Assembly: GCF_000332195.1 (NCBI RefSeq)
Contig: NZ_KB235922.1
Coordinates: 6,049,322-6,113,321 of the forward strand
DNA from: Pleurocapsa sp. PCC 7319
Lineage (GTDB): Bacteria; Cyanobacteriota; Cyanobacteriia; Cyanobacteriales; Xenococcaceae
Length of the DNA stretch: 64,000 nucleotides
Direction of reading: 5' to 3'
A program made the translations under genes and the position numbers. Of the stretch, positions 29,751 through 56,811 are shown one piece after another; within the stretch, counting starts at the first letter, position 1, and the number at the start of each line of letters is the position of its first letter. The notes beneath the pieces are model-generated. The model was not told where the DNA came from, did not search any database, and saw only the letters and a list, made by a program, of their open reading frames with translations.

Positions 29751-29756
29751 CTGTTA

Positions 29757-29777: not shown

Positions 29778-31215
29778 ATTCTTTAGTTTGTAATTTACTA
29801 ATCAAATCATAAAATGGTTGCCAGTTGTTATCCTCGGAAATTGATTGCCAAACAGATTCAATAACTGTTCTAAGAAGGGCAGTCTGAGGATTATTAAATG
29901 TAAGGCGATCGCCTATTTTTTCCATTTCTGCTGCTGGCAGTTGATTGAGACACTTATGATATAAATCACGCCATATAGAGTTAATTTGATGATTAAACGT
30001 CGCATTTTCTAAAATTAAATTACTATCTTCTCGCCAACCATAATTAAATCCTTGGGCTAGTTCGGCAAAAAAGCCATGATAACTAATTTCTGTATCTCTT
30101 AATAGCTCGATAGTTTGAGCAAGTAATTCAATGGTAAATAATGGTTCAGATGCCTCAAATCCTAATTTTTGCAGCATCAATTTTTGGTAATACTTCTGAT
30201 AACAGTCATCGTATTGTGCTAAGCCAGCCTCTAAATTTGATTGCTCAGTAACCATTGCCAGAGGTAATTGCAGCATCTCTAAATTAAATTTACAGATATG
30301 TGGTTGATTGCCATAACTATACCGCCCACCATAATCAAAACTTGCTGCGGTAAACCGAGGATTATAAGTCGGAATAAAGGCATAGGGACCATAATCAAAA
30401 CTCTCCCCTGTAATCGACATATTATCAGTATTCAATACACCATGACAAAAACCAGCCGCCATCCACTGCGCTGCCAGCTCAGCAGTTCTGTTAACTAATG
30501 CTGCATAAAATTGACTATATTTATCTTCTGTCTCAGGAATATCGGGATAATAAACAGCAATAACACTATCTAAAAGCTTAGTAATATAATCTGGACGCTG
30601 AATGTAGTGTAATCGCTCAAAAGTACCAAAGCGGATATGAGAACTACTAAATCTGACCATCACTGAAGAACGAGTCGGGGAAGGCTCATCGCCCCGCCAG
30701 AGAGATTCTCCCGTTTCAATTAAACTTAAACAGCGAGAAGTCTTGACTCCTAATTGGTGCAAAGCTTCAGCAGCTAAAACTTCTCTGACTCCCCCTTTGA
30801 GGGTTAATCTACCATCTGCACTTCGGGAATAGGGTGTTCTCCCCGAACCTTTGGTTCCCAGATCGACAAGATTTCCATTTACATCTCTAACCTGTCCGTA
30901 TAGAAAACCTCTGCCATCCCCGAGGAAGGGATTATAAGCGCCAAATTGATAGCCGTGATAGCGTAAAGCTAAATAAGGACGTACTCCCTGAAACTTACCA
31001 AATGCTTCGATAAAATCGGCATCACTGATTGAAGTTGCCTCTAAACCTATCAATGGCAATAGTAAGTCGTTGCGATAACGTAAAAAATGTGCCGGAAACT
31101 CGGCAGCAGCTACTACATCGTAATAATCATCTCCCAATTTCTCCATCACTGGTTCGTATTCAAGATTCAAGAAAGGATTGAGATTGGGTTTCATCGCAGT
31201 TACAAAATTAGACAA
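29776..31215 (-). CDS. selO: Protein adenylyltransferase SelO/YdiU family
   Basis: A 479-residue pseudokinase-fold enzyme that transfers AMP to protein Ser/Thr/Tyr residues, linked to redox stress in other bacteria. Family motifs are [46 protein letters not shown], the catalytic-loop [12 protein letters not shown] and [14 protein letters not shown]. The C-terminus ends in ISKLQTKE, so the C-terminal Cys/Sec redox motif of many SelO proteins is not present. It is divergent from the CRR7-like gene. Confidence 0.92.
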
Positions 31216-31274
31216 GAAACTAGCTTTAGAATTAATGTATAAGAAATTACTCTTGCTTGCTTACTTTTTCTCCC

Positions 31275-31532
31275 ATGCCAGATTCCATCATGTATCAAGA
31301 GGATGGCTATATTGTCCTCGAATCAGACCAAGTCGAAGAATTTATGTCCGCTGAAGAATTAAAAGCGAAGCTAGTCAGTTTTTTATTACTGGAAGAAGTA
31401 ACTATTCCCAAGGAATTAGAGCAGTTTGAATCAGCTGAGTTACAGGCGCAACATTTACTAGATCATTATTTTGAATTAGATATCGGTGCAGATAAATATC
31501 TCCAGTGGTATGTGGTGCGTTTGGAAAAGTAA
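31275..31532 (+). CDS. Chlororespiratory reduction 7 (CRR7)-like protein
   Basis: An 85-residue acidic protein: MPDSIMYQEDGYIVLESDQ, then EEFMSAEELKAKLVSFL and the ending DKYLQWYVVRLEK. The pattern resembles cyanobacterial/plastid CRR7, which is associated with NDH-1 assembly in chloroplasts. I place the start at ATG 31275; an upstream ATG at 31257 would add six residues. It sits 25 bases before the acyltransferase gene. The assignment rests on memory of the family and is moderate. Confidence 0.65.
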   Translation: MPDSIMYQEDGYIVLESDQVEEFMSAEELKAKLVSFLLLEEVTIPKELEQFESAELQAQHLLDHYFELDIGADKYLQWYVVRLEK

Positions 31533-31557
31533 ATTTAGGGAATTTTTCACCGATTAA

Positions 31558-32394
31558 ATGAGTCAAAAAAGTAAATTCACCGATATCAATGGGCGGTCGT
31601 TAGACGCCAGAAATCCGGAATTGATTGAGTCTTTTATGCCATTGTGGGAGTGGTTTTATCGCTATTATTTTCGTGTAAAAACTGATGGCTGGCATCATAT
31701 TCCCAATCAGGGTCAGGTGTTACTAGTCGGTTCACACAACGGTGGATTGGCAACTCCTGACATGGTAATGAGTATGTACGATTGGTTTCGTCGTTTCGGT
31801 ACCCAAAGACCAATCTATGGCTTAATGCATAGTAGTGTTTGGTCAGTGAATCCTCGATTAGCTAGACTGGGAGAGCAAACAGGAGCGATCGCCGCTCACC
31901 CCAAAATGGCGATCGCCGCCTTGAAAAGCGGGGCTAGTGTCTTAGTTTATCCAGGAGGCGCACAAGATGTATTTCGTCCCTATACTCAGCGGAACCAAAT
32001 AAATCTAGCTGGGAGAAAAGGTTTTATCAAATTAGCATTGCGAGAAAAAGTACCAATTGTGCCGATTATTTCTCACGGCGCACACGATACGATATTTGTC
32101 TTAGGAGATATTTATGAGCTAGTTAAACAACTTCATCAGTGGGGAATGCCTTGGTTATTTGATACAGACCCCGAAGTATTTCCTATCTACCTTGGTTTAC
32201 CTTGGGGAATTGGCATTGGTCCTCTTCCTAATATTCCCTTACCAGTACAAATTCACACTCGTGTCTTGCCACCAATTGTCTTCCCCCAAAATGGTCAACA
32301 AGCAGCACGCGATCGCGCTTATGTCGATCAATGTTATGAATTAGTGGTTAACACCATGCAAGAGGGATTAGATCAATTAATTACTGATTACTGA
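31558..32394 (+). CDS. PlsC/DGAT-like lysophospholipid acyltransferase
   Basis: A 278-residue acyltransferase. The catalytic His/Asp block is VGSHNGGLATPDMVM (~62). VLVYPGGAQDVFRPYT (~137) matches the GGAxE-type substrate-binding block of DGAT2-like proteins, and KGFIKLALREKVPIVPIISHG the next conserved block. Residues 20-35 (MPLWEWFYRYYFRVKTDGW) may dip into the membrane. It probably acylates a glycerolipid or a long-chain alcohol; the substrate is not evident. Its last residues, ITDY, are encoded by the TTACTGA heptamer array that spans the stop codon. Confidence 0.85.
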   Translation: MSQKSKFTDINGRSLDARNPELIESFMPLWEWFYRYYFRVKTDGWHHIPNQGQVLLVGSHNGGLATPDMVMSMYDWFRRFGTQRPIYGLMHSSVWSVNPRLARLGEQTGAIAAHPKMAIAALKSGASVLVYPGGAQDVFRPYTQRNQINLAGRKGFIKLALREKVPIVPIISHGAHDTIFVLGDIYELVKQLHQWGMPWLFDTDPEVFPIYLGLPWGIGIGPLPNIPLPVQIHTRVLPPIVFPQNGQQAARDRAYVDQCYELVVNTMQEGLDQLITDY

Positions 32395-32429
32395 TTACTG
32401 ATTACTGATTACTGATTACTGATTACTGA
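32381..32429 (+). repeat. TTACTGA heptamer array x7 spanning a stop codon
   Basis: Seven perfect tandem TTACTGA units. The acyltransferase TGA stop (32392-32394) is inside the second unit, so the array has grown over the end of the gene. Confidence 0.9.
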
Positions 32430-32593
32430 TTGCTTATTTCAGTATCACAGCAAAAAGTTCGGACATTTTGCTGAAATATCAATCAAAAACTCATTACTCA
32501 TTAATTGCAAAGTAGTCACTTTTAATTTCCTAAATATAATTTTGTACAGCTACAAAAGGTAAGCTTTATAAGTGGCGTTTGTAGAAAAAATTT

Positions 32594-33823
32594 ATGGCAA
32601 CGATTAACGATAACTATCTCAAACTCAAAGCAGGATATCTGTTTCCCGAAATTGCAAGAAGAGTCAACGCTTTTGCAACAGAAAATCCCGATGCACCGAT
32701 TATCAAGCTAGGAATTGGGGATGTTACCGAACCTTTACCCGCAGCTTGTCGTGAGGCAATTATTAAGGCTACCCATGAGATGGGCGATCGCGCTACTTTT
32801 AAAGGGTATGGTCCCGAACAAGGTTATCTTTGGTTAAGAGACAAAATTGCGCAACAAGACTTTCAGGCTCGCGATTGTGACATCGATGCCTCAGAAATCT
32901 TTATCTCAGATGGGTCTAAATGTGATTGTGGGAATATCCTAGATATTTTTGGTAAAGACAATAAGATTGCTGTTACCGATCCTGTGTATCCTGTATATGT
33001 TGATACTAACGTCATGGCAGGTCATACAGGAGAAGCAGATGAAACTGGTAAATATGAAGGTTTAGTTTATCTCCCCATCAGTGCCGACAACGACTTTACA
33101 GCAGAAATTCCTACGGAAAAAGTAGACTTAATTTATCTTTGCTTCCCCAATAACCCCACGGGGGCAACTGCTACTAAAGAACACCTAAAAGCTTGGGTAG
33201 ACTACGCTAGACAGCATGGTTCATTAATTCTCTTTGATGCCGCCTATGAAGCTTATATTACCGATCCTAATTTACCCCACTCCATTTACGAAATAGATGG
33301 AGCAAAGGACTGCGCGATCGAGTTTCGTTCATTTTCCAAAAATGCTGGCTTTACAGGTACTCGTTGCGCCTTAACTGTAGTTCCGCAAAACCTAACAGGT
33401 CAAGCTACTGATGGTTCAGACGTGAAACTATGGCAACTTTGGAATCGTCGTCAATCAACTAAATTTAATGGTGTATCATACATCGTACAACGAGGAGCAG
33501 AAGCAGTTTATTCTGAAGCTGGACAAGCACAGATAAAAAAATTGATTAGCTTCTATTTAGAAAACGCTAAAATTATCCGCGAACAGCTTACAGCAGCGGG
33601 AATTCAGGTATATGGAGGGGTCAATGCTCCTTATGTCTGGGTCAAAACTCCTAACGGCTTATCAAGCTGGGATTTCTTTGATAAACTGCTGCTCAACTGT
33701 AACGTAGTTGGGACACCAGGATCTGGTTTTGGTGCCGCAGGGGAAGGCTATTTCCGTATTTCTGCCTTTAATAGTCGCGACAATGTTAACGAGGCGATGA
33801 AACGCATTAGCGAAAAGTTTTAG
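32594..33823 (+). CDS. dapL: LL-diaminopimelate aminotransferase
   Basis: A 409-residue PLP enzyme (fold type I) that makes LL-diaminopimelate from tetrahydrodipicolinate, the one-step DAP route of cyanobacteria and plants, feeding lysine and peptidoglycan synthesis. Seen: [20 protein letters not shown] at the N-terminus, [45 protein letters not shown] and the PLP-Lys block [15 protein letters not shown]. The length is exact for DapL. Confidence 0.97.
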
Positions 33824-33840
33824 ACATGATCGAGTTTGAA

Positions 33841-34563
33841 TTAATTTAGATTTAATTTAACTGTTTTTATTGCTGCTTCGGCAGCTTTTTTTTCAGCTTC
33901 TTGTTTACGACGACCTGTCCCAACTCCATATACCTTGCCATTTATTAGTACTTGAGCTGTAAATTGTTTAGCGTGATCGGGTCCTGATTCGTCAATAATT
34001 TGATAAGTTGGTCTAGTTTGATATTCAGCTAGTGCCCATTGTTGGAAACGATTTTTGCTATCAATAAATGTTTCTTGAGGTTGAACTAAATTTTGGTTGA
34101 CATCTAAATTAGAGCCTAAAGAATCGTTGACTAATTTCTCTGCTAAAGGTCGAAAAATTTTTAAAATATATTCCCTAACTGCTTCAATTCCGGTATCGAG
34201 AAAATAAGCACCCAACGTAGCTTCAAAAGTATCGTTAAGTAAGGATGGGTTGTCTCTACCTCCGTCCTTGTCAGCTCCTTTTCCTAAGCGCATTAATTTT
34301 CCGAGACCTAATTCCGCTCCTAATTTGCCTAATTGCGTTTCGTCGACTAATCGCGATCGCAGGTGAGTTAATTGAGCTTCGTTGATCGAAGGATACATTA
34401 CGTAGAGCATCTCGGCGATCACAAAACCGAGAACCGCATCACCAAGAAATTCTAAGCGTTCATTATCTTCTCCCGCTCCAGGATGTTCGTTGACGTAAGA
34501 GCGATGGGTTAGAGCTAAATTAAACAATTCCAGATTTTTAAATGATGGTAATTCTGAATTCAT
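33841..34563 (-). CDS. rnc: Ribonuclease III
   Basis: A 240-residue double-strand RNA endonuclease. The catalytic domain carries the signature NERLEFLGDAVLGFVIAEML (~40) and a second metal-binding block LLNDTFEATLGAYFLDTG (~107). A C-terminal dsRNA-binding domain (~165-235) contains DHAKQFTAQVLINGKVYGVG and KKAAEAAI. It processes rRNA precursors and structured RNAs. It converges on dapL with only 17 bases between them. Confidence 0.95.
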   Translation of the reverse strand: MNSELPSFKNLELFNLALTHRSYVNEHPGAGEDNERLEFLGDAVLGFVIAEMLYVMYPSINEAQLTHLRSRLVDETQLGKLGAELGLGKLMRLGKGADKDGGRDNPSLLNDTFEATLGAYFLDTGIEAVREYILKIFRPLAEKLVNDSLGSNLDVNQNLVQPQETFIDSKNRFQQWALAEYQTRPTYQIIDESGPDHAKQFTAQVLINGKVYGVGTGRRKQEAEKKAAEAAIKTVKLNLN

Positions 34564-34715
34564 TTTTAATTCTTAATTGAAACTCGACTTTCAAGATGGA
34601 AAACAAAAGATGATTTGTCAAGTTTTGTTACAAAACGCATAAATATAATCTGGGTAAGAGAAGTAATCAATAGTTGAAGATCTTTCGATCTTTTATTTTG
34701 ATTGGACTCTAATAA

Positions 34716-35684
34716 ATGACGAGCATCAATAAGTTTGAGCAAGAAAAATATGAACAAGTGCAACAACTTTTACAACAAGTTCAAGCTACAAACAACTTTC
34801 AACTGCAAGAATTAGTCATTAACCAAATTGCGGTGAAAATTTTGCGATCGCGTCCATTATGTCGTCGATTTAATGGTAAGCCCCTAACTGGAGTTTATCA
34901 AGAAATTTATGACCAAGCTAAAGAACAATTAGTCGCTCTTATTCAGCAACATTCAGCAAAATCAAGTCTGTTAACAAACGGTAATCATTTCTCAAATTAC
35001 CAACAGCTCACGCCGGATTATTTATACTCAATACAAACAGAAATTTTTCAAAGAATACTCAATGATAATCAATTGAAAAAACTGTGTTTAAATGCACAAA
35101 ATTTTTTGGTCAATAGTGAACTGAGAACTTATGCTCTAACCGAATTAATTAAGGCAATCAAACTATCTGGTAAATTATGCCGTCCCCATATGAATAAATT
35201 CCCTCCTAATTTATATAATCTTCTCTATCAAGAAGCTCTAAGTGAAACCTATATATATATATGTTTGAATATCGACTTATACGATCCTGAACGTGGACAA
35301 AAAAAATTCATGAATTGGGTTAATTTCAATTTAGACAAACTTTTACTTAAATGTTATGAAAGATATAATAAGTATAGTAAATATGAGCTTTCTTCTTTTC
35401 AAGACTTAGAGCAAATTAAGCAACCCTTTGAGCATCAAGATTTAAGCAAATTACTCAGACAATATCTGAGTCAAGATCCAGATAATATTTTTCGCGAAGC
35501 TTATATTAGAAATAGACCAAATGCCAACTTTCGTCAGATTGCTCTAGCTAAATTTTCTGGTCAAAGTTGGATAGAAATATCGCTGCAACTAGATATCCCA
35601 GTCTCAACCCTAAGTAGTTTTTACAATCGATGGTGCCGTCGATTCGCACCCATATTAAAAACAGAATTAAAAAAGTATCTTTAG
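34716..35684 (+). CDS. Divergent sigma-70-like regulator
   Basis: A 322-residue basic protein. The segment YQEALSETYIYICLNIDLYD followed by PERGQKKFMNWVNFNLD (~168-205) resembles sigma region 2 (y-D-p-e-r-G..kF..w/y), and WIEISLQLDIPVSTLSSFYN (~287-306) is a region-4-like helix-turn-helix. Regions 1 and 3 are not evident, so it could be an ECF/group-3-like sigma or a sigma-derived regulator. It is first in a three-gene operon (29-base gap to DUF1822, then CHAT-CHASE2). A second sigma/DUF1822 pair at 54.4-56.8 kb has the same order. The start at ATG 34716 lacks a strong ribosome binding site. Confidence 0.72.
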   Translation: MTSINKFEQEKYEQVQQLLQQVQATNNFQLQELVINQIAVKILRSRPLCRRFNGKPLTGVYQEIYDQAKEQLVALIQQHSAKSSLLTNGNHFSNYQQLTPDYLYSIQTEIFQRILNDNQLKKLCLNAQNFLVNSELRTYALTELIKAIKLSGKLCRPHMNKFPPNLYNLLYQEALSETYIYICLNIDLYDPERGQKKFMNWVNFNLDKLLLKCYERYNKYSKYELSSFQDLEQIKQPFEHQDLSKLLRQYLSQDPDNIFREAYIRNRPNANFRQIALAKFSGQSWIEISLQLDIPVSTLSSFYNRWCRRFAPILKTELKKYL

Positions 35685-35713
35685 CTACATAACTAGGAGA
35701 AAATATATTAAAA

Positions 35714-36652
35714 ATGAATCTTCAATCAGAGATATTTCAACAAATTACTATTCCTGCCAAAGCTCGCATAAAGGCGGAACAATTTCGTCGCTATCAGTCT
35801 CAAGGAACAAAAGCAAAACAAGTTTATCTCAACACTTTAGCTGTATTTATAGCTAATTATTATCTCAATTCATTAGGTTGGGCGACTAATTTGGAGAGCA
35901 GTGATAGCTGGAATCCTATATTTCAAACCATGATGGACGTTGCCGATCTGCAAATTCCTAATTGTGGCAAATTGGAATGTCGAGTTGTTTTAAATCACCA
36001 AGATACGGTTACTATTCCGCCTGAAGTCTGGTATAAGAGAATTGGTTACTTAGTAATTAGGCTAGACGAATCTTTAAGCCAAGGGACGTTGCTAGGATTC
36101 ATTCCTGAGATCAAACAAGTTGAATTACCTCTTAATCAACTAGAATCATTAGCACAATTTCCTGCTTACCTAAACCAGCAAAAATCAATGGCATCAGTTC
36201 AATCTGTTAGCCTTAGTAGATGGTTATCTGGAGCATTAGATTGCGGCTGGTATAAATTAGAAGAACTATTGTTGCCCCCTATAGCTCTCAACTTTAGGAG
36301 TCCACCAAAAGTAGCTAACCAGCACCTGAAAAACTTATCCACACAAGTTAGTCGAGTTAAGTTAGTCAGGTTGGAAAATATTAGTCACGATATTGCTTTG
36401 GTATTGAACATCCAGCCGGAGAGAAATGATGAATTTAATATTTCGGTTACAGTTTGCCATAGGGAAGAACATCAATACCTACCAGAAGGTTTAGAATTAG
36501 TCATCTTAGACGAAGTTATGCGTCCCGTAATGATTGCTCAAGCTAATCAGACAGAGACTATTGAATTCTGTTTTAGTGGCAAATTGAGAGAAAGTTTTAG
36601 TGTTGAATTATCTTTAGATGAGAATATCAAGGTAGAAAGCTTTATTATTTGA
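35714..36652 (+). CDS. DUF1822 family protein
   Basis: A 312-residue protein of DUF1822, a cyanobacterial family of unknown function. Shared landmarks with the second DUF1822 protein here are YLNTLAVFIANYYLNSLGW near residue 40, the block IPPEVWYKRIGYLVIRLDES near 100 (compare VPQEW..IP.W..DYYLAVQ in the other) and a C-terminal region LRESFSVELSLDENIKVE. No signal peptide or membrane helix is seen. An AGGAGA lies about 15 bases before ATG 35714. Position between a sigma-like gene and a CHAT-CHASE2 gene suggests it couples the two, for example as anti-sigma factor or protease substrate; this is inference. Confidence 0.78.
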   Translation: MNLQSEIFQQITIPAKARIKAEQFRRYQSQGTKAKQVYLNTLAVFIANYYLNSLGWATNLESSDSWNPIFQTMMDVADLQIPNCGKLECRVVLNHQDTVTIPPEVWYKRIGYLVIRLDESLSQGTLLGFIPEIKQVELPLNQLESLAQFPAYLNQQKSMASVQSVSLSRWLSGALDCGWYKLEELLLPPIALNFRSPPKVANQHLKNLSTQVSRVKLVRLENISHDIALVLNIQPERNDEFNISVTVCHREEHQYLPEGLELVILDEVMRPVMIAQANQTETIEFCFSGKLRESFSVELSLDENIKVESFII

Positions 36653-36684
36653 TGGTTGGCAGATTAGTTGTTAATTGTTGATTG

Positions 36685-39006
36685 ATGACCAAGTTAGTAA
36701 TTTTGAAGCTAAGTGGTGATTTTGAGTCAGGGTTTCAAATTAGCCTCGAAATTGGACTAGAAGGAAAGTCGGCTGACTGCGGCTTTTCAGGATTCTTACC
36801 CCCTGCAACTGAATTGAGACGATGTCTAGCTCAGTTGCAAGACCTATACCGACAGCAGAGCCAAAATTGTCGTATCAAGCCTCAGCAAATTATCTATGAT
36901 GGCTCGATCAATCCTCATAAACAGTTAGTCAAATCAGCTGCCAAGTTACACCAAGAATTACAAAATTGGCTTAATTATCCTAGTTTTAATTCAGTTGATA
37001 AACATCTGCGAGAAGAGTTGAATCGACAAGAAGTAATTAGAATGCTGATTTGTAGTAATTGCCTCGAAATATATCAGCTACCTTGGTGTTGTTGGGATCT
37101 AGTAGATAACTACCCAAAGTTAGAAATTGCCATCAGTAATTTTAATTTCGAGCGGGTGCCAACTATCCATAAGCCATTTAAAACTGGTAAAGTCAAGATT
37201 TTGGCAATTTTGGGAGATGGCCGAGGTTTGAATTTAGAGGCTGATCGGGCTTTTCTGAATTCTTTAGCAGAGGGAGAAGTCATCTTTTTGATTGAGCCAA
37301 CTCGCCAGGAACTATACGCTCATCTCTGGCAAGATTCCTGGGATATTATTTTTTTCGCGGGACATAGTCAGACTATAGCTAGACAAGGATTGCTCTCACT
37401 TAACGCTGAGGATCAATTAACCATTGAAGAATTAAGACCTGGTTTTAAACAAGCGATCGCTTCAGGACTTCAGTTAGCAATTTTTAATTCTTGTGATGGA
37501 TTGGGTATAGCTGAAGAGTTAGGGCAATTATCCTTACCTCAGTCGATTGTAATGCGTTGGCCCATACCAGATATTATGGCGCAACAGTTTGTTAAATATT
37601 TGCTGCAAGCTTATGCCGGAGGGAACTCTCTCTACATCTCTACCAGAATGGCCAGAGAGCAATTGCAAGGTTGGGAAAAACAGTTTCCCTGTGCTGCCTG
37701 GCTCCCGATAATTTATCAGAATCCAGCAATTATCCCGCCCAAATGGGCAGATTTACGAGGAAATCAGCAAAAAAATACTTCTAAGGCTCAACTACGCTGG
37801 CAACCACAATTATTAGCCTCGATCTCAATAATTAGTGCTGTCGCTACTATGTTAGTTTGGCTGATGCAAACTGGGAGCTGGTTACAAGCAGGAGAATTAA
37901 ATGCTTACGATCGCTTTATAGGTTGGCGGACTACTCCCCCTGCAGATGAACGAATCTTGATCATTACTATCGATGATCAAGATATCCAGTATCAAAGAGA
38001 GCAAAATCTGGCAACAAATATGCGTGGCTCTCTTAGTGATGAAGCCTTAGCCCAACTAATAACTAGGTTGCAACCTGGGCAACCTAAAGCGATCGCCTCA
38101 GATATAATTCATGATTTTCCTTTCTCTCCCAAATTAGCAGATATTATCGCCCAAACTGATGATTTTTTCGCTATTTGTCGTGTCAAAATTGACCAAGCTC
38201 AACTAGTTAGTATTGCTCCCCCATCCCAACTCCCCCCTGAGCAAGTGGGCTTTAGTAATTGGGCGGTAGATGATGATAAAACAATTCGCCGCCAAATTTT
38301 AGGTATGTCTCCAGATCAAGTATGCCAAAGTGGCTTCTCATTTGGTTTACGCCTTGCTCTTAAATATTTGGATCATCCCCCTGCCAAACTAAATCAACAG
38401 GGTTTATTACAAATTGGCGAGACTGTATTTCCTAAACTAAGTGCTTCAAGTGGAGGATATCATTTACCCGAGGCTCAAGGTTATCAAGTTTTATTGAACT
38501 ATCGCCATACTTCACCTCAAACTATTGCCCTAAGAGAAATTTTTACTATTCCGGAGCAATCTCTAGCAAAACTAGTCCAAGACAAAATTGTTTTTTTGGG
38601 AGTAGTGGGACACAATCACGATCTACATCTCACTCCCTTGAGCAAAGGAAAACATACAGAAAGTCTTCCCGGAGTGGTAATCCATGCCCAAATGACTAGT
38701 CAAATAATTAGTGCGGTATTAGGAGAACAAAAACTACTATGGTGGTTCTCAGATAAAGTCGAATTAATTTGGGTTGCTCTTTGGTCTGCGGTTGGTAGTA
38801 TCATCATCATTTTGCTACGACGTTCGATTATCAAAATAGCTGTCAGTATTTATCTTGCTTTGACAGTTCTTTTAGGCTGCTGTTGGCTATTGTTTCTCAA
38901 TGGAGGCTGGATTATTGCGATCGCTCCTGCTTGGGGTCTATTGATATCTGCTGCTCTCACCGCTGTTTATCGTCGAACCCAATCTGTTGACATTCCCCAC
39001 GCATGA
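36685..39006 (+). CDS. CHAT-CHASE2 membrane protein (caspase-like sensor)
   Basis: About 773 residues in three parts. The N-terminal ~360 residues include a CHAT (caspase-HetF) domain; the dyad is probably His227 in FFAGHSQT and Cys270 in AIFNSCDGLG. A transmembrane helix (~376-397, ASISIISAVATMLVWLM) leads to an extracytoplasmic CHASE2 sensor (~405-690, with DERILIITIDDQDI and LPGVVIHAQMTSQIIS), then three helices (~692-761). I chose ATG 36685 over TTG 36682. CHAT domains are caspase-like proteases; CHASE2 is a sensory domain. It closes the sigma-DUF1822 operon. The last five codons (DIPHA) and stop come from a TnpB transposon right end. Confidence 0.88.
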   Translation: MTKLVILKLSGDFESGFQISLEIGLEGKSADCGFSGFLPPATELRRCLAQLQDLYRQQSQNCRIKPQQIIYDGSINPHKQLVKSAAKLHQELQNWLNYPSFNSVDKHLREELNRQEVIRMLICSNCLEIYQLPWCCWDLVDNYPKLEIAISNFNFERVPTIHKPFKTGKVKILAILGDGRGLNLEADRAFLNSLAEGEVIFLIEPTRQELYAHLWQDSWDIIFFAGHSQTIARQGLLSLNAEDQLTIEELRPGFKQAIASGLQLAIFNSCDGLGIAEELGQLSLPQSIVMRWPIPDIMAQQFVKYLLQAYAGGNSLYISTRMAREQLQGWEKQFPCAAWLPIIYQNPAIIPPKWADLRGNQQKNTSKAQLRWQPQLLASISIISAVATMLVWLMQTGSWLQAGELNAYDRFIGWRTTPPADERILIITIDDQDIQYQREQNLATNMRGSLSDEALAQLITRLQPGQPKAIASDIIHDFPFSPKLADIIAQTDDFFAICRVKIDQAQLVSIAPPSQLPPEQVGFSNWAVDDDKTIRRQILGMSPDQVCQSGFSFGLRLALKYLDHPPAKLNQQGLLQIGETVFPKLSASSGGYHLPEAQGYQVLLNYRHTSPQTIALREIFTIPEQSLAKLVQDKIVFLGVVGHNHDLHLTPLSKGKHTESLPGVVIHAQMTSQIISAVLGEQKLLWWFSDKVELIWVALWSAVGSIIIILLRRSIIKIAVSIYLALTVLLGCCWLLFLNGGWIIAIAPAWGLLISAALTAVYRRTQSVDIPHA

Positions 39007-39140
39007 ATGCGGGAGATTCTTGGTTCGTAGAAAAAACTTACCCTGACAAATTCTCATCAGCCAAGATAGAGGTTTCGTCTCCCCAAGCTTTAGATCCCGT
39101 GTGTCCCACGGTACTTAATCCTAAAGAGAGGATGTTTCTG
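38987..39140 (-). ncRNA. Probable omega-RNA of the second TnpB
   Basis: The tnpB 3' end (STVGHTGSKAWGDETS region) plus the right-end hairpin CCCGCATTCATGCGTGGG is the usual source of the TnpB guide RNA. The guide would read into the CHAT-CHASE2 3' end (minus strand from 38986). Inferred from the family; extent approximate. Confidence 0.4.
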
Positions 39141-40213
39141 GCTGCATTTTCATCTCGGTCGAGAACACAGCCACACTTACACTTATGAGTTCTGGTGCTG
39201 AGAGTTTTAGTTACTTTAGCTCCGCAACCAGAGCAGTTAACAGAAGTATACTGCGGTGGTACGGCAACTGTTACTTTGCCAAACTTATAGCCAAAGTACT
39301 CTAACCACACTCTAAATTGATACCAGCCAGCGTCGGTTATCGACTTGGCAAGATTGTGATTTTTTACCATCTTGCCAATTCTTAAGTCTTCATAAGCGAC
39401 TACATCGTTAGATGTGATTACGCACCGTGCCAATTTCACGGCATGGTCTTTACGTTGCCTACTTATCTTAAGATGCTTTAGGGCGTATCTTTTTCTCGCT
39501 TGGTGATAGTTCTTAGACTGTGGTTTTTTACTTTTGACGTACTTTTTAGACTTGCTTCGGTTTAAGCGATTGAGTGCTTTTTCACCTCTTCGATAAAACC
39601 GAGGATTCTCAATCTGATTCCCTTTGTCGTCGGTATAGAAATAGTTCAAGCCAACGTCTAAACCAATTTCAGAATAAGATGGTTCTACTCTTTCTCGGTT
39701 GTCGGCATCGACTAAAAACTGACCATAATAACCATCAGCACGTCTAACTATTCGTACTCGTTTGAATTGTTTGATATCGTACCAATTCAAATCTCTTGTA
39801 CCTTTGAGCTTGACCCGACCGATATTATTCTGATCGGTGAAGGTTATCTGTTTTCTGTTTTCAGAAAGCTTCCAACCTGTAGTCTTATACTCGACCGAGC
39901 GAGAATGCTTCTTGAACTTAGGAAATCCCTTTTTTCCAGGAGTTTTATGTTTACAGTTTTGATAGAAACGAGATATTGCAGCCCAGGCTCGATCTGCACT
40001 GCTTTGTCTGGCCATTGAATTTAGCTTGTGAGCAAAGGGGAATTCAGCAGCTAGTACTTTACAGTATGCCGATAGCTGGTATTTTCCTACTCCTTTATTG
40101 TCCATCCAATATCGCAATGCTTTGTTGCGTATGAATTGTGCCGTTCTGATGGCTTCATCCATCGCATCGTATTGAGTTGGCTTGGCTTGTATCTTCATCT
40201 CTAGAACTAACAT
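39038..40213 (-). CDS. tnpB: TnpB RNA-guided endonuclease, second copy
   Basis: A 391-residue TnpB of a different subfamily from the one at 7 kb. RuvC motifs are IGLDVGL (Asp186), VVAYEDLRI (Glu275) and LDRDENAARN (Asp352/354). The zinc ribbon Cys are 327, 330, 345 and 347. The N-terminal OrfB helix-turn-helix (AIRTAQFIRNKALRYWMDNK) is complete. All catalytic residues are present, so the nuclease is likely functional. Translation may start at Met1 or Met6 (MKIQAKPTQYDA). No tnpA is adjacent. Confidence 0.93.
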   Translation of the reverse strand: MLVLEMKIQAKPTQYDAMDEAIRTAQFIRNKALRYWMDNKGVGKYQLSAYCKVLAAEFPFAHKLNSMARQSSADRAWAAISRFYQNCKHKTPGKKGFPKFKKHSRSVEYKTTGWKLSENRKQITFTDQNNIGRVKLKGTRDLNWYDIKQFKRVRIVRRADGYYGQFLVDADNRERVEPSYSEIGLDVGLNYFYTDDKGNQIENPRFYRRGEKALNRLNRSKSKKYVKSKKPQSKNYHQARKRYALKHLKISRQRKDHAVKLARCVITSNDVVAYEDLRIGKMVKNHNLAKSITDAGWYQFRVWLEYFGYKFGKVTVAVPPQYTSVNCSGCGAKVTKTLSTRTHKCKCGCVLDRDENAARNILSLGLSTVGHTGSKAWGDETSILADENLSG

Positions 40214-40260
40214 ATTCTTATGCTATCATATAAGCATAAACTAACCCAGTAAGTGCTAGC

Positions 40261-40306
40261 CGTGCCTTATATCCCCATGTCTGAAGCCAGGGGCTTTACG
40301 GCACGA
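40261..40306 (-). repeat. Left-end hairpin of the TnpB element
   Basis: CGTGCC pairs with GGCACG and, inside it, CCCC with GGGG around the ATGTCTGAAGCC loop region. This is the typical structured left end recognised by TnpA in this transposon family. Confidence 0.7.
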
Positions 40307-40471
40307 ATCGGTAATTAATTCCCAAACGAGAGAAGATTCCGCTAACACCATTAAGAAAAATTGGGAATCTAAAAAAAAATTGGGAATCTAAAATAGTTAT
40401 CATAGGATTGATTTGAATCAGATTATTTATTAGTTGTAAATAAATTAAAGCCGATTAGGATTAAGTAAATA

Positions 40472-41047
40472 ATGACAATCAATCTAAGCAAAGGGCAAAG
40501 AATCTCTTTAGAAAAAGTAGCACCTGGGCTAGTACAAATCTTCGTTGGTTTAGGGTGGGATATTAATGTGACCGATACTGGTGGCGATTTTGATATCGAT
40601 GCATCAGTTTTTCTCCTAGACAGTAATGAAAAGTTAATTTCCGATCAACACTTCATTTTTTATAATAATCAGGTTAGTCCTGACCCCGATCAATCAGTTA
40701 AACAGTTAGGCGATAATCGAACTGGTGCTGGTGAAGGAGATGACGAAATCATTGATATTAATCTTAAAACCGTTCCTGCTGAAGTAGCTAAAATAGCAAT
40801 CACTGTGACTATTCACGAAGCAGAACAACGTAGCCAGAACTTTGGTCAAGTACAAAATGCCTTTGTCCGCGTTGTTAATGCTGAAGACGAACAAGAAATC
40901 ATTCGCTATGACTTGACCGAAGACTTTTCCATTGAAACTGCCCTGATTATGGCAGAACTCTATCGCAAAGATGGTGAGTGGCGCATGAATGCAGTAGGAG
41001 CAGGCTACGAAGGCGGATTACAGGCTTTAGTCGATCGATATCATTGA
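40472..41047 (+). CDS. TerD-family protein, copy 1
   Basis: A 191-residue TerD/stress-protein family member, a calcium-binding beta-sandwich linked to tellurite resistance and general stress in other bacteria. It shows TINLSKGQRISLEKVAPGL, FDIDASVFLLDSNEKL, the metal-binding DNRTGAGEGDDEII block and NAFVRVVNAEDEQEI. It forms a pair with the next TerD gene 250 bases away. The TGA stop falls inside TTGAC, the first bases of a transposon right-end-like sequence. Confidence 0.92.
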   Translation: MTINLSKGQRISLEKVAPGLVQIFVGLGWDINVTDTGGDFDIDASVFLLDSNEKLISDQHFIFYNNQVSPDPDQSVKQLGDNRTGAGEGDDEIIDINLKTVPAEVAKIAITVTIHEAEQRSQNFGQVQNAFVRVVNAEDEQEIIRYDLTEDFSIETALIMAELYRKDGEWRMNAVGAGYEGGLQALVDRYH

Positions 41048-41072
41048 CACTTCCACGCATAAATGACGTGGG
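41044..41072 (-). repeat. Solo transposon right-end relic
   Basis: TTGACACTTCCACGCATAAA continues into TGACGTGG and matches the right end at 38987 (TTGACATTCCCCACGCATGA). CCACG/CGTGG forms the hairpin. No tnpB or left end accompanies it. Confidence 0.6.
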
Positions 41073-41090
41073 TTTTCACCTTCTATAAAA

Positions 41091-41125
41091 GATGAGGGAT
41101 GAAGGATGAGGGATGAAAGATAAAG
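41091..41125. repeat. Heptamer tandem repeat GATGARG x5
   Basis: Units GATGAGG, GATGAAG, GATGAGG, GATGAAA, GATAAAG follow one another between the two TerD genes. Confidence 0.75.
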
Positions 41126-41210
41126 ATAAATAATTTCGTCTCTCTGACTCCCTATTTATTTTGCTTCAATATTATCTGGTAGGCTCAAAATTAATAACTA
41201 ATATAACTAC

Positions 41211-41259
41211 TGACAACTGACAACTGACAACTGACAACTGACAACTGACAACTGACAAT
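41211..41259. repeat. Heptamer tandem repeat TGACAAC x7
   Basis: Six perfect TGACAAC units plus TGACAAT, 41 bases upstream of the second TerD start codon. Confidence 0.9.
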
Positions 41260-41299
41260 CATAATCAATTAATTAAAGTAATCTAGAGACCCAAAATCA

Positions 41300-41890
41300 A
41301 TGGCAATCAACCTCAAAAAAGGACAGCGTATTTCTCTAACTAAAGAAGAACCAAACCTCAAACAAATCATGTGTGGACTGGGTTGGGATGTTGCCCCTAA
41401 AACAGGCGGTTTCTTTGGTGGTGCCAAGCAATTCGATCTAGATTCTTCGGTAATCTGTTTAGATGGGGATAAGAAATTAACCGATGTTAAAAATATAATT
41501 TACTTTGGCAATTTAAGGCATAGTTCTAGTGCGATCGCTCACCAGGGAGATAATCTAACTGGTGCCGGAGAAGGAGACGATGAAGTGATTAATATCGACT
41601 TGCCGTTAATCCCACCCAGTATTATTTATTTAGTATTTGCCATTAATATTTATAAATGCAATAATCGCCGACAAGATTTTAGTATGGTGGATAATGCTTT
41701 TGTCCGTTTAGTCAATCGTACTAATAATAAAGAATTAGCCCGCTACAATCTATCTGGAGCTGAATATCGTGGTATGACTGGAATGATTTTGGCAGAGGTC
41801 TATCGCCATAATGATGAATGGAAAATGGCTGCTGTTGGTAATGGGTTTAAGGTAGCTACATTGGCAGATATTGCCAAGCTTTACACGTAA
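41300..41890 (+). CDS. TerD-family protein, copy 2
   Basis: A 196-residue paralogue of the preceding TerD: AINLKKGQRISLTKEEPNL, FDLDSSVICLDGDKKL, GDNLTGAGEGDDEVINIDL with the Ca-binding acidic residues, and VDNAFVRLVNRTNNKELARY. It carries a short insert after WDVAP (KTGGFFGGAKQ) absent from copy 1. Other ter genes (terA, terB, terC, terF) are not adjacent, so a general stress role is more likely than a full tellurite operon. Confidence 0.93.
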   Translation: MAINLKKGQRISLTKEEPNLKQIMCGLGWDVAPKTGGFFGGAKQFDLDSSVICLDGDKKLTDVKNIIYFGNLRHSSSAIAHQGDNLTGAGEGDDEVINIDLPLIPPSIIYLVFAINIYKCNNRRQDFSMVDNAFVRLVNRTNNKELARYNLSGAEYRGMTGMILAEVYRHNDEWKMAAVGNGFKVATLADIAKLYT

Positions 41891-41976
41891 ATTAAAAATT
41901 ATATTTTTTTGCACTAGTATGCCTATTAGAGCTATACTCCAAACGGATTTATTTAAATTAACTAATCTCGAAAAGC

Positions 41977-43326
41977 ATGGTAGCGGTAGCAATCTTAGCA
42001 GCAGGACGAGGCACTCGCATGAAGTCCGATTTACCCAAAGTCTTGCATTCATTGGCAGGGCGATCGCTCGTCGAACGGGTACTTGATAGTTGTAGCTTAC
42101 TTAATCTTGATAAACAGATCGTTATTGTTGGTTATCAGGGAGAAAAAGTTAGACAGGCTTTAAGTCATCGTCAAGATCTTGAGTTTGTCGAACAAATACA
42201 ACAACTAGGAACTGGTCATGCGGTACAACAATTGATGCCTTACCTCCAAGGTTATGGTGGAGACTTATTAGTTCTCAATGGCGATGCGCCTCTACTACGC
42301 CCAGAAACTCTGCAACAATTGGTAGAAACTCATCAAAATAATCAAAACGCGGCGACTCTGTTGACAGCTAACTTACCAAATCCTCAAGGTTATGGCAGAG
42401 TTTTTTGTCATGGAGATGATTTAGTTAGTCATATTATTGAAGATCGGGACTGTACCAGCGCTCAAAAGCAAAATCGACGGGTAAATGCGGGAATATATTG
42501 CTTTAATTGGCAGAAATTAGCTGAATCTTTACCTAAACTTTCAACTGATAATGATCAGCGAGAATATTATTTAACTGAAGTAGTAGATTATCTTTCTCCT
42601 GTAATGGCTTATGATGCCGAAGACTACCGTGAAACTAGTGGTATCAATGATCGCCGACAGCTTTCAGCAGCTTATGACATTCTACAAGCCAGAATTAAAG
42701 ATGATTGGATGAAAGCAGGTGTGACGATGCTGAATCCCGATAGCATCACTATAGATGAAAGCGTGCAACTAGAACCAGATGTAATTCTAGAATCTCAAAC
42801 CCATCTTCGAGGCAATACTACCATTGCTACTGGCAGTAGAATTGGTCCTGGAACTCTGATCGAAAACAGCAAAATTAGTACTAATGTCACCGTTCTATAT
42901 TCCGTGGTGATCGATTCCGAAGTAGCCGCTAATACTAGAATTGGTCCTTATTCCCATCTGCGAGGTGACGTTAAATTGGGTGAAAGTTGTCGTGTGGGTA
43001 ACTTTGTCGAGATCAAGAAAACCTCTGTTGGCTCTAATACCAATGTGGCTCACTTGTCTTACCTAGGAAACGCTACTTTGGGCGATCGCGTGAATGTCGG
43101 AGCAGGTACGATTACTGCTAACTACGACGGCAAACACAAACATCCCACAACCATTAAACAAGGTACTAAAACTGGCTCCAATAGCGTTTTAGTCGCTCCG
43201 GTTACTCTGGGAGAAAACGTTACCGTAGCAGCAGGTTCGGTGGTTACTCAGGATGTCAATGATAATGCTTTAGTCATTGCGCGATCGCGCCAAAAAGAAG
43301 TTCCTGATTGGCATACTGATTACTGA
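41977..43326 (+). CDS. glmU: Bifunctional GlmU uridylyltransferase/acetyltransferase
   Basis: A 449-residue cytoplasmic enzyme making UDP-N-acetylglucosamine for peptidoglycan and surface glycans. The N-terminal Rossmann domain has [18 protein letters not shown] and the metal-binding [10 protein letters not shown] linker helix leads to a left-handed beta-helix (~250-440) with [33 protein letters not shown] and [18 protein letters not shown], the CoA/acetyl-transfer region. The last residues HTDY are encoded by a TACTGAT heptamer array running over the stop codon. Confidence 0.97.
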
Positions 43327-43341
43327 TTACTGATTACTGAT
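43314..43341 (+). repeat. TACTGAT heptamer array x4 spanning the glmU stop
   Basis: Four perfect units; the glmU TGA stop (43324-43326) is in the second. It is the same heptamer as at 104, 29757 and 32381. Confidence 0.9.
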
Positions 43342-43429
43342 TACTCGTTACTTACGAGCAATCTAATAATTGTCCTAATGTAACTTTGTACGGCTATATA
43401 TATGTTCTTTGATAGCTCCTGAACCTCCT

Positions 43430-49852: not shown

Positions 49853-49858
49853 AAGGAG
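49853..49858 (+). promoter_or_regulatory. Ribosome binding site of clpS
   Basis: AAGGAG lies 8 bases before GTG 49867 and supports that start for clpS. Confidence 0.75.
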
Positions 49859-54402: not shown

Positions 54403-55587
54403 TTAAAACTGCAATACTTCTGGCTGATAGTTGTCGGGCGTAGGTTCTATTTGCCAAACTAGGGATTCTCCAGCATCTAAATCTACTTCCAAGCAGAGCT
54501 GCTCTACTGGTTCAGTTGCTAGATCTTCGTTACCTTCAAAAGCCTGTAAATCTTCGGTGAGTAATCTGAGCTTAAAGCCAGCGGGGATCATACCACCAGG
54601 TGTAAGACTGCGCAATTCAAAACGCCATGAACTTAGATCAGGCAGAGGAAGAATTTTTAATTCATAAGACTGATTGGCGATCGCAACTTGTTTAGCCAAG
54701 CCAAACGAGGGAACTGCACTGCTAGTAGTTGGTTCTGGAGTAGCAACACCTCTAGCACCAATCGCGCTAGGAGTCATTTCGATTGGTCTCCAACCCAAAT
54801 CTGTAGTTAAGTTAGTCATACCCTGCTGTAACCACTGCAATACTGGAGTTTTGTATGTTACACCACGGCGAGTTGCTGCCAAGCGACGACACCAGTTTTT
54901 ATTTTGCACTAAGGCTGCCCAGGTACGGAAGGGAACAGCTAACCGAGGTAATAGTATGGAGCGATCGCCTAAACGCTTGATTAAGTTCTCAGCTTGAGTA
55001 GGAGCGATCGCTGTCACAGGTTCAACCTCCACTTGAGTTACTTCCTCGGGGCATAATTCTCTAGCTACCCACAAGACATCAATATCGGAGATTAATTCGT
55101 CATCAGTCAAAGTATAGGTACGGTCATTATGACTAAAGTTAGCGCTAGTTTTTAACTGTTGGTGAGTAGCATAGCCCCAAACGCGGATGTAGCCAGCATC
55201 AACATTCACCTGAACTGCTAAATAGTAGTCTGCTGACCATTCAGGAATGTCAATCCATTCTTGAGGAACTCGTAATTCACTTAAGTCTTCAGCTTCAGAG
55301 GGAATTAAGACTAGTTTGGCATCTTTGAGACTAATTGCAGTACCGTTGACTACCTCCCAAATGTCATTATTAGTAGCTAGATCGAAACTTGCTTGAGCTG
55401 AACTATCTTCTTCTGTTTGTAACCAAGGTAAAAAAGCATTTAATGTTACTTGGTTGAGATAGTTTTGCCAACGACTATGGTCGTTGACCACATTTGAGCT
55501 TTGTGACCAAGCTTGATTAATAATAGTTTCGTTTAGTTCGAGAACTAATTGAGTGGGGTTAAATAAACTTTGGTTTACGGTAGTCAT
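54403..55587 (-). CDS. DUF1822 family protein, second copy
   Basis: A 394-residue DUF1822 protein. Landmarks are WQNYLNQVTLNAFLPWLQTE (~45), LRVPQEWIDIPEWSADYYLA (~107), IRVWGYATHQQL and the C-terminal LCLEVDLDAGESLVWQIEP. It is longer than the first copy because of a central Thr/Ala/Pro-containing stretch (~205-300). AGGAGT sits 6 bases before the start. It follows a sigma factor gene with a 33-base gap, the same order as at 34.7-36.7 kb, but no CHAT gene follows. Confidence 0.82.
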   Translation of the reverse strand: MTTVNQSLFNPTQLVLELNETIINQAWSQSSNVVNDHSRWQNYLNQVTLNAFLPWLQTEEDSSAQASFDLATNNDIWEVVNGTAISLKDAKLVLIPSEAEDLSELRVPQEWIDIPEWSADYYLAVQVNVDAGYIRVWGYATHQQLKTSANFSHNDRTYTLTDDELISDIDVLWVARELCPEEVTQVEVEPVTAIAPTQAENLIKRLGDRSILLPRLAVPFRTWAALVQNKNWCRRLAATRRGVTYKTPVLQWLQQGMTNLTTDLGWRPIEMTPSAIGARGVATPEPTTSSAVPSFGLAKQVAIANQSYELKILPLPDLSSWRFELRSLTPGGMIPAGFKLRLLTEDLQAFEGNEDLATEPVEQLCLEVDLDAGESLVWQIEPTPDNYQPEVLQF

Positions 55588-55620: not shown

Positions 55621-56811
55621 TTATTGGTCGCTGTCGTAATAACCAGCTAACCATTCTTCTAATAGTGAGCTTATGTTGTCGAGTACGTCCGATGTCAAAG
55701 AAATATGCATAGTTTCTTGGGTCCATTTTGCCAAAGCTTTGAGCAGCACTTTTCTGGCCCGAGATAATTTGCGAGAAATTGTATATTGTTGGGTATTTAA
55801 CTCCTGGGCAATTTCAGCTTGTTTAAGTCCTAGGGAATAATAAAGTTCTAATAATTTTCGCTCTTCGGGTTTTAATTTTTGAATGCAGGCAGTTAAAAAC
55901 TGATTAATATCTGTCTGCTGTTGACTACGTTGTTCTGCCTCTTCATCCGCAATCATATCTGTTAACAGGGAATCGTCAACTTCGCCGACGATGGAATCGA
56001 CTATTTCTCCAGAATCATAACCTGGTTTAGGTCTATTAATTGATGTGACACTGGGAAACAAGTAGGAACGGACCGCTTTGACGCAAACTAGCATCCACTT
56101 TTCTATATTTTCTGGAGTTGCAGCTTTACCAGCCTGCTTGAGTTGAGTTCGACGTTCTTGATTATAGAAATTCGCGATCGCTACCCAAGTTTCCCGTTCT
56201 GGTTTAGGTAGCTTACGAGTAGAACTAGCTCGCTCTGGTACATAAATCGTCTTCAGACAATTCCAGGCTAAGATGTATTGCTCAACTACTTCCTGGTCTA
56301 GTCCGGCACTAGCAAGTGCTTCGGTCATTCTTTTCTGACTTAGTTTACGTAGCAGCGACCAATCAGAGCAGATATCAATTTCTCGTTTTTGTCTTAATAG
56401 CTCCCGAATTAGATTACCAAAGGTAATACTGGCATAGCTTTTAAGGTTAAATCCTCGTTCGCGATCAAATCCTTTGAGAACTTTATCAATTCCAGCGATC
56501 GCCACTTGAAAACAATCAGGTACTGTATACTGATTGCTACTAAAGCCGCTAATGGTTTTGGTTGATGACCAAAAACATACTTCTTGCAAATAAGCTGCTA
56601 AATGTTCTCTTGCCAGGCTTTGAGGTTGCTTTTGCCAAATTTGATGCCAATATAACGCCCAAAAGTTGTCCGAACTCTCAGTAGATATCTTGTTTAATGA
56701 TTGCTTCATACTGCGACGCAATCTTGTGTCCGTCGCCCAGGTACTAAAGCGATCATAATCAAACTGGATAAAAGTAGAAAATATTTCAATTGTGTTTTGG
56801 CGAGGGAGCAT
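55621..56811 (-). CDS. Sigma-70 family RNA polymerase sigma factor
   Basis: A 396-residue sigma-like protein. Region 2 is seen at FQVAIAGIDKVLKGFDRERG continuing FNLKSYASITFGNLIRE (~105-145). Region 4 is LKPEERKLLELYYSLGLKQA followed by EIAQELNTQQYTISRKLSRA (~315-355), with a clear helix-turn-helix. Region 1 is absent and the middle is long and unusual, as in cyanobacterial group-3/4 sigma factors. It forms an operon with the DUF1822 gene. Confidence 0.85.
   Translation of the reverse strand: MLPRQNTIEIFSTFIQFDYDRFSTWATDTRLRRSMKQSLNKISTESSDNFWALYWHQIWQKQPQSLAREHLAAYLQEVCFWSSTKTISGFSSNQYTVPDCFQVAIAGIDKVLKGFDRERGFNLKSYASITFGNLIRELLRQKREIDICSDWSLLRKLSQKRMTEALASAGLDQEVVEQYILAWNCLKTIYVPERASSTRKLPKPERETWVAIANFYNQERRTQLKQAGKAATPENIEKWMLVCVKAVRSYLFPSVTSINRPKPGYDSGEIVDSIVGEVDDSLLTDMIADEEAEQRSQQQTDINQFLTACIQKLKPEERKLLELYYSLGLKQAEIAQELNTQQYTISRKLSRARKVLLKALAKWTQETMHISLTSDVLDNISSLLEEWLAGYYDSDQ

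Follow-up and report, generated by a model that had tools for sequence, protein, structure and literature searches.

HetF is a cyanobacterial protein of the CHAT family, and in systems of the RseA/RsiW type an anti-sigma factor is cut after an envelope signal. In the parts of a review available to us (PMC12288457), HetF is described as cleaving PatU3, which inhibits the regulator HetZ. In the type III-E CASP (Craspase) system, the TPR-CHAT protease Csx29 cuts the inhibitor Csx30, whose N-terminal domain binds the extracytoplasmic function (ECF) sigma factor CASP-sigma (excerpts of PMC10028731, which also mention regulated proteolysis of the RseA/RsiW type). ECF54 has CHAT proteins in its gene context and is listed among the ECF sigma factors without an anti-sigma factor (PMC8999054, in part). 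One sentence in Kaur et al. (2021, eLife; PMC8195603, main text) places EACC2-caspase genes, with variable C-termini including CHASE2, beside ECF sigma and DUF1822 genes; DUF1822 is called a TPR protein there, and autopeptidase activation is proposed. Here we analyse such a trio in 64,000 nucleotides of Pleurocapsa sp. PCC 7319 (contig NZ_KB235922.1; "the window"), at window positions 34716-39006, where three co-directional genes encode a sigma-like protein, a DUF1822 protein and an EACC2-CHAT-CHASE2 membrane protein. We propose, with a probability of about 0.6 for the whole chain, that the trio works as a sigma switch driven by regulated proteolysis, with DUF1822 as a protease-addressed anti-sigma factor.

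The three genes lie on the plus strand between rnc and a TnpB gene, both on the minus strand. The first open reading frame (ORF; 34716..35684) encodes a divergent ECF-like sigma factor of 322 aa, which we call class A. The second (35714..36652) encodes the 312-aa DUF1822 protein (PF08852, E 1.1e-53), the proposed anti-sigma factor and CHAT partner. The third (36682..39006) encodes 774 aa from a TTG start, with an alternative ATG at 36685; a Pfam scan found CHAT (1.2e-9) and CHASE2 (PF05226, 4e-55; residues 388-706, 37843..38799). Both intergenic gaps measure 29 bases if the TTG is used, and the second is 32 with the ATG, which agrees with the gaps of 29 and 32 in the initial annotation; its His227 and Cys270 are H228 and C271 when counted from the TTG. 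Its authors knew of no description of such a trio, and this claim was rejected, as the association is already given in Kaur et al.

We found the EACC2-caspase architecture in the window: EACC2 followed by CHAT (the EACC2 name was assigned from the architecture as described in PMC8195603, not by alignment), a CHASE2-type sensor with transmembrane (TM) helices at the C-terminus, and sigma and DUF1822 neighbours. The TPR label did not fit. A Pfam scan of DUF1822 gave no TPR family and its model is alpha/beta plus beta, so that "DUF1822 is a TPR protein" was rejected; domain swaps, described below, point to an anti-sigma factor instead. In the main text of Kaur et al. the terms anti-sigma and DUF928 occur 0 times. 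The passages found by searching open-licence literature hold no statement of DUF1822 as an anti-sigma factor or as bipartite; they bring CHAT domain, anti-sigma factor and ECF together only in the Csx29 paper (PMC10028731), and the same literature gave nothing for a CHAT protease with a sigma factor in cyanobacteria. The gene trio itself is already known; what is new here is the two-half anatomy of DUF1822 and its domain swaps.

Type III-E CASP, as far as described in the source, shares with our proposal a CHAT protease that cuts the inhibitor of an ECF sigma factor, but its trigger is target RNA via Cas7-11, whereas the sensor here would be a membrane CHASE2 domain. The trio has neither a TPR nor a credible Cas domain (a chance-level Cas2 match, E 0.014), with no search made for a CRISPR array, and Csx30 among PDB chains did not match DUF1822 by profile, nor by fold at E<=0.001. 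In the HetF-PatU3-HetZ path, going by the review, a CHAT-family protein likewise cleaves a regulator's inhibitor, but no sigma factor takes part; the window protein is not HetF (15.6 bits against a cut-off of 1200 for NCBIfam CellDiv_HetF). RseA/RsiW-type systems resemble the proposal in leading from an envelope signal to the cutting of an anti-sigma factor. They differ in that the membrane anchor here is in the protease; DUF1822 lacks any TM-like segment (maximum window hydropathy 1.05). ECF54, in the part of its source consulted, has CHAT genes near an ECF sigma factor as the trio does, but no anti-sigma factor is described for it.

To examine conservation, we searched 116 genomes of the phylum with Pfam PF08852, and 87 of them matched. 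Forty-five of these 87 lie outside the window's taxonomic class and match weakly (best E 1e-5 to 7e-13), and the matches listed there are mostly inside long proteins. Among the 53 genomes of the class, DUF1822 is found in 42. EACC2-CHAT was matched in 43 of the 116 genomes, three of them (G063, G069, G094) only weakly (4e-17 to 3e-12), and the 40 with a strong match all have DUF1822. The 53 genomes thus divide into 40 with both, two with DUF1822 but without strong EACC2-CHAT (G045, G069), none with strong EACC2-CHAT only and 11 with neither (Fisher 1e-9, uncorrected for kinship and genome size).

Gene order was read in 122 of 123 retrieved stretches (L150, of 501 bases, was left out) plus two window pieces. 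The stretches were chosen among the PF08852 matches listed, at about 100 bits or more, with some weaker and partial ones added; the only out-of-class matches retrieved (L133 and L134, weak matches of a distant family) were dropped before counting. Taking "directly" as a gap of up to 400 bases, a sigma-like gene stands directly upstream of 102 of the 121 DUF1822 ORFs, EACC2-CHAT directly downstream of 64, and both are present in 51, with median gaps of 23.5 (sigma-DUF1822) and 25 bases (DUF1822-CHAT). The initial annotation had raised the question of conservation beyond this genome; the trio is kept. Conversely, when named genomes were scanned for EACC2-CHAT by itself, at least 574 stretches were obtained, 562 of them confirmed. 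In the best 80 of these 562 (79 loci, 81 EACC2-CHAT ORFs), DUF1822 is directly upstream of 60 ORFs, and 42 of the 60 pairs have a sigma gene ahead (41 before the sigma gene of L219 is counted). Calothrix sp. PCC 7716 (L159) and several Nostoc genomes are among the carriers of such a trio. Rows from sister genomes (L136/L137, L142/L143, L125/L126) are non-independent and some genomes may overlap named contigs; 9/50, 36/75 and 13/38 alignment rows were left out for redundancy in A5, A6 and A7, and A8 was hand-picked.

By comparison of sequences, DUF1822 is built of two exchangeable modules. Its AlphaFold2 (AF2) model (mean predicted local distance difference test score, pLDDT, 89; predicted template modelling score, pTM, 0.66) has an alpha/beta N-half, a low-confidence linker at about residues 186-200 (36269..36313) and a beta C-half. 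Gene order and N-half similarity assign residues 1-155 (35714..36178) to a sigma-linked module; gene order, distances and the model assign residues 212-312 (36347..36649) to a CHAT-linked one. Copies with only one half are informative. All seven C-half-only copies among the 121 precede EACC2-CHAT and one follows a sigma gene; of ten N-half-only copies, seven follow a sigma gene and the one that precedes CHAT is broken (L030). When only intact copies are counted, without L030 and the broken C-only copy L139, CHAT is downstream of 6/6 C-only and 0/9 N-only copies (p 2e-4; 7/7 and 1/10 with the broken ones), and a sigma gene is upstream of 1/6 and 7/9 (p 0.04). With one copy per sister pair the CHAT counts are 5/5 and 0/7 (p 0.001). 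The N-terminus of L141 may be damaged, and the N-only figure is 0/8 without it. In three N-only loci the long downstream neighbour was scanned: in L118 and L145 it is a TPR-CHAT protein of a different type, in L141 a TPR protein. A second set of ORFs, picked by similarity to an anti-sigma-swapped protein, gave a mixed outcome, with EACC2-CHAT within 400 bases of 5/11 C-only ORFs (among these five, L219 and L192 were met again and L262 is cut by the contig edge).

Similarity within the halves follows the same division. All 94 sigma-linked two-half genes share their sigma class with their nearest neighbour by N-half; by C-half 84% do (36% when shuffled). CHAT adjacency is predicted by C-half similarity (0.71, slightly above the best of 300 shuffles, 0.68), but not by N-half similarity (0.64, best shuffle 0.67). 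In 54 non-redundant class A trios, CHAT distances track the C-half with r 0.77 and the N-half with 0.57 (bootstrap difference 0.10-0.33). A DUF1822 sequence profile found no credible relative in the PDB (best E 1.2, unrelated), and by profile DUF1822 and EACC2-CHAT are unrelated (E 0.13, probability 0.5%).

The anti-sigma reading of DUF1822 has its strongest support in two intact loci, L200 (Rivularia sp. MS3, JAHCMI010000112.1) and L219 (Xenococcaceae MO_167.B27, JASJCP010000099.1), where a classical anti-sigma domain replaces the N-half. The N-terminus of these fusions (226-238 aa) matches the anti-sigma model NF052375 (E 7.4e-11 and 4.6e-9; partial matches, under the model's 100-bit whole-protein cut-off), and their C-terminus is DUF1822-C (Pfam 9.4e-17 and 5.8e-16). 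In L200 the fusion starts 14 bases behind an ECF sigma gene (Sigma70_r2 1e-15, r4_2 3.7e-15) and ends 6 bases ahead of EACC2-CHAT; L219 has the same order. The exchange of DUF1822-N for a classical anti-sigma domain goes with that of the class A sigma factor for a classical ECF sigma factor. The swaps single out DUF1822, not the sigma protein, as the inhibitor, and we consider it likely, from these comparisons, that DUF1822 inhibits its sigma factor. Pfam and NCBIfam scans found no recognisable anti-sigma domain in the window DUF1822 itself. DUF1822 could conversely be a positive co-factor or chaperone of the sigma factor, which CHAT would degrade to turn the sigma factor off; gene order and co-evolution fit this equally well, but a classical anti-sigma domain in the place of the N-half points to inhibition, and we hold the co-factor role to be improbable.

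Other domains also take the place of the N-half. These are TRADD-like_N in L131 (1.4e-12), PIN_3 in L135 (4.4e-8), a domain without family assignment in L136/L137 and, in the host genome, an NB-ARC domain (1.4e-11) fused to DUF1822-C ahead of CHAT-CHASE2 (L029). Such PIN and TRADD-N fusions would suit a cell-death or conflict module, with CHAT as a broad effector protease and only a secondary part for the sigma arm, and EACC2 is described among conflict systems in the text of PMC8195603 available to us. The HEAT-like parts of the CHAT relatives L031 and L200 match the PADLOC candidate-defence model HEAT-ARM_XIII (9.6e-54 and 3e-28), and L031 has genes for a phage-type lysozyme and a CAP protein nearby. 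Against this, no PADLOC model matched the window DUF1822 or CHAT-CHASE2 at E<=0.1, and 102 of 121 DUF1822 copies are paired with a sigma gene; a conflict role is highly doubtful in our judgement. As a separate observation, six loci (L260, L261, L263, L264, L265, L270) encode proteins of about 200 aa with a conserved short N-terminus and DUF1822-C, behind a conserved gene for 230 aa (the single one scanned has no Pfam family); of the six, L263 alone has EACC2-CHAT directly downstream.

The protease is well conserved in its catalytic residues. In the alignment of CHAT ORFs, the catalytic H228 (codon 37363..37365) is present in 147/149 and C271 (37492..37494) in 146/149; the exceptions are a truncated frame (L130) and two long frames with CHAT beyond the 480 aligned residues (L074, L154). 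By hydropathy, a single TM-like segment has its centre at residues 384-388, and several more lie at 701-754. A profile of the CHAT sequence found no credible relative in the PDB. The AF2 model (pLDDT 91, pTM 0.90), by Foldseek, matched separase (3.4e-10), activated SAVED-CHAT (1.1e-9) and the transmembrane anti-sigma factor DdvA (1.7e-6). In the Myxococcus system of the ECF sigma factor DdvS and DdvA (PDB 8rot/8rw5) the anti-sigma factor itself thus resembles this CHAT model in fold; going by the entry title and the match, anti-sigma factor and CHAT-like fold are there in one chain, while here they would be two proteins.

The inter-half linker of DUF1822 carries a conserved Phe194-Arg195-Ser196 (Arg195 codon 36296-36298, plus strand). 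Arginine occupies this column in 104/119 two-half DUF1822 proteins with a CHAT neighbour (87%) and in 12/15 C-only copies with CHAT (rows include the re-finds L268 and L269). We regard it as a candidate cleavage site. It is not diagnostic, because it is as common in copies without an EACC2-CHAT neighbour, and "the linker arginine proves CHAT cleavage" was rejected on the same ground. Long insertions between the halves, HEAT-like by eye, stand just past the arginine in some DUF1822 copies, L064, L081, L173 and L226 among them.

An alternative is that CHAT cleaves itself, that DUF1822 is an adaptor and that the sigma factor is freed by a conformational change rather than by the cutting of DUF1822; autopeptidase activation was, in the text available, already proposed by Kaur et al. 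(PMC8195603). It would account for EACC2-CHAT without DUF1822 directly upstream, as in 21 of the 81 ORFs from the best 80 of 562 stretches and in the host copies L031 and L032, although such copies may act in trans. Of the 21, one is at a contig edge, two have DUF1822 one gene further and one (L169) has a gap above 400 bases. The linker between CHAT and the membrane has no Arg/Lys column above 45% in 101 CHASE2-bearing proteins, against 87% Arg in the DUF1822 linker, a comparison whose premise is an assumed Arg/Lys specificity. We consider self-cleavage unlikely and prefer the cutting of DUF1822.

Two further observations concern the protease. L031 encodes an EACC2-CHAT protein with HEAT-like repeats (1536 aa) with no DUF1822 ORF near; its closeness to the lysozyme and CAP genes recalls the hydrolases found behind a promoter motif in relatives (see below). 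A DUF928 protein, seen at L028-L030, L032 and many related loci, is directly downstream of CHAT in 49/66 cases with CHASE2 and 0/15 without (79 named loci, best 80 of 562), and in 24/35 and 0/38 in the phylum sample. DUF928 was confirmed by Pfam in the four members scanned from a group of 25; from this gene order it may be a partner of CHASE2. It was not found in window positions 29701-43400 or 49001-61800.

The class A sigma factor is divergent. As a single sequence the window protein gave only a weak match (NCBIfam SigX, 0.0093) and no Pfam family above its own cut-off. A profile of 26 class A members matched the sigma genes of L200, L219 and L137 across sigma regions 2 and 4 (hhalign E 3.5e-9, probability 96%), which supports the ECF sigma identity at profile level. 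The same profile aligned poorly with a 400-aa class B sigma factor (E 0.014, probability 3%), and in the PDB no sigma chain reached an E below 0.48. The divergent sigma-70-like identity first proposed for this gene thus holds for the profile and is not reached by the single sequence under Pfam cut-offs or by the PDB search. An internal duplication was rejected, as 40/500 shuffles scored as high or higher. In L174 (2400-4976) and L177, an 858-aa NACHT-HEAT-sigma fusion (domains scanned in L174), which links a sigma factor with a STAND ATPase, is directly upstream of DUF1822 and CHAT-CHASE2.

Words enriched upstream of class A sigma genes yielded a two-part motif, TTTTGTWA-N14-18-YRTAAA, which resembles ECF promoters. 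It is found upstream of 21/89 class A sigma genes (shuffled 0.02; two on the reverse strand), a figure that is not independent as the motif was found in those same regions, and upstream of 0/40 class B and 0/21 class C genes. The window lacks the full motif; only the -35-like half (AAGTTTTGTTAC) is present, at 34620..34631 (plus strand). For class A sigma genes we propose the promoter form TTTTGTAAC-N16-CGTAAA. A strict pattern, TTTTGTAA-N16-17-CGTAAAA, matched 83 times across 31 of 148 genomes of the order, against 15 times for a reversed control (sums by hand). The 57 sites viewed, one of which was counted twice, include 15 that lead into class A sigma genes (several already among the 89) and one that leads into an EACC2-CHAT gene; for 10, no ORF of at least 60 aa starts within 350 bases. 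Ten other downstream proteins, hand-chosen as long- or exported-looking, were scanned: a subtilase-DUF4114-SH3-CHAP protein, two M23 peptidases, an M23-lectin protein, two CAP proteins (one with RTX repeats), a PPC-domain protein, a two-partner secretion (TPS) adhesin and two without family. This suggests, from sequence, a regulon of likely exported proteins in relatives, with wall hydrolases and adhesins.

The frame of the proposal, namely the gene order, the domains, the conserved catalytic dyad and the two exchangeable DUF1822 halves, can be read directly from the sequences. On this frame, DUF1822-N would bind and silence its cognate class A sigma factor, and DUF1822-C would tether the inhibitor to the EACC2-CHAT protease. 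An envelope signal meeting CHASE2 would activate CHAT, which would cut or destabilise DUF1822, probably in the inter-half linker, and so free the sigma factor. The freed sigma factor would raise its own operon and, in relatives, exported wall hydrolase and adhesin genes as well. Elsewhere the CHAT-addressed C-half would hold other payloads (PIN, TRADD-N, NB-ARC). The initial annotation had CHASE2 sensing, CHAT acting on DUF1822 (or the sigma-like protein) and transcription changing as a result. The conserved trio, the dyad and the swaps in L200 and L219 strengthen this chain, with DUF1822 favoured over the sigma protein as the inhibitor; the linker arginine, equally common without CHAT, does not add to it. 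Also in favour, other proteases stand beside sigma-DUF1822 pairs, namely TPR-CHAT in L118, L145 and L123 and trypsin-TPR in L078 and L079 (8 scanned of 31 non-EACC2 downstream genes).

Several results weigh against our proposal. EACC2-CHAT is missing directly downstream of 44 of the 94 sigma-linked two-half genes, and 6 of the 11 C-only ORFs of the second set have no CHAT within 400 bases (one, L275, has an EACC2-CHAT gene further downstream). The C-only copy L137 does stand behind a sigma gene, and sigma distances do not separate the halves significantly (N-half 0.47, C-half 0.40; confidence interval of the difference -0.05 to 0.20). The whole DUF1822 model had no Foldseek hit in the PDB at E<=0.001 and so no likeness to a known anti-sigma fold, and the anti-sigma swaps amount to two intact loci, the third copy (L192) being broken. 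The linker arginine is also found in 54/61 two-half DUF1822 proteins without a CHAT neighbour, with a further 6 Lys; two of the arginine-bearing rows (L037, L048) come from genomes without a strong EACC2-CHAT hit. Finally, the genome that holds the window has no match to the strict promoter pattern.

Other copies and neighbours were also recorded. A second sigma-DUF1822 pair, without adjacent CHAT, lies at 54403-56811 on the minus strand of the window: a class B sigma gene of 396 aa (55621..56811, Sigma70_r4_2 1.1e-10) and its partner, a DUF1822 gene of 394 aa (54403..55587, PF08852 5.9e-94). The host genome has seven DUF1822 and six EACC2-CHAT matches, including a second intact trio (L028), the broken copy L030 and the two CHAT copies without a DUF1822 ORF within the retrieved stretch (L031, L032). 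In a genome of the same genus (L099) the orthologous trio is also beside rnc and is 64-67% identical, with nonsynonymous divergence (dN) of 0.23-0.25 and synonymous divergence (dS) of 1.3-1.9, near saturation; as dN is well below dS, the trio is more than chance. In L054, L055 and L062, which have no adjacent sigma gene, a TPR-CHAT gene is directly upstream of DUF1822; the N-termini of these TPR-CHAT proteins look exported by eye. An IS200/IS605-type TnpB gene (guided_TnpB 1.2e-72; 39038-40213, minus strand) lies 31 bases past the CHAT-CHASE2 gene, with no TnpA among seven neighbouring proteins scanned, and two TerD genes stand in tandem at 40472-41890. An Rfam scan of 33500-41500 at gathering thresholds found nothing.

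More tentatively, and at odds we would put somewhat below even, DUF1822-C may be a portable address tag. An EACC2-CHAT family with exchangeable sensors (CHASE2 and others) would hold exchangeable payloads and release them on a signal by cutting beside the linker arginine. The payload would most often be a sigma factor, held via DUF1822-N or a classical anti-sigma domain, and otherwise a PIN domain, a TRADD-N adaptor or an NB-ARC ATPase, with the cyanobacterial sigma branch driving secreted wall hydrolases and adhesins. For experiments, the division of DUF1822 into two halves is a convenient starting point. If the proposed switch is true, the uncharacterised cyanobacterial family DUF1822 would become a named regulator, a caspase-like bacterial protease would gain a native substrate and an output, and the Csx29-Csx30-sigma logic of CRISPR would have a sensor-driven counterpart outside CRISPR.

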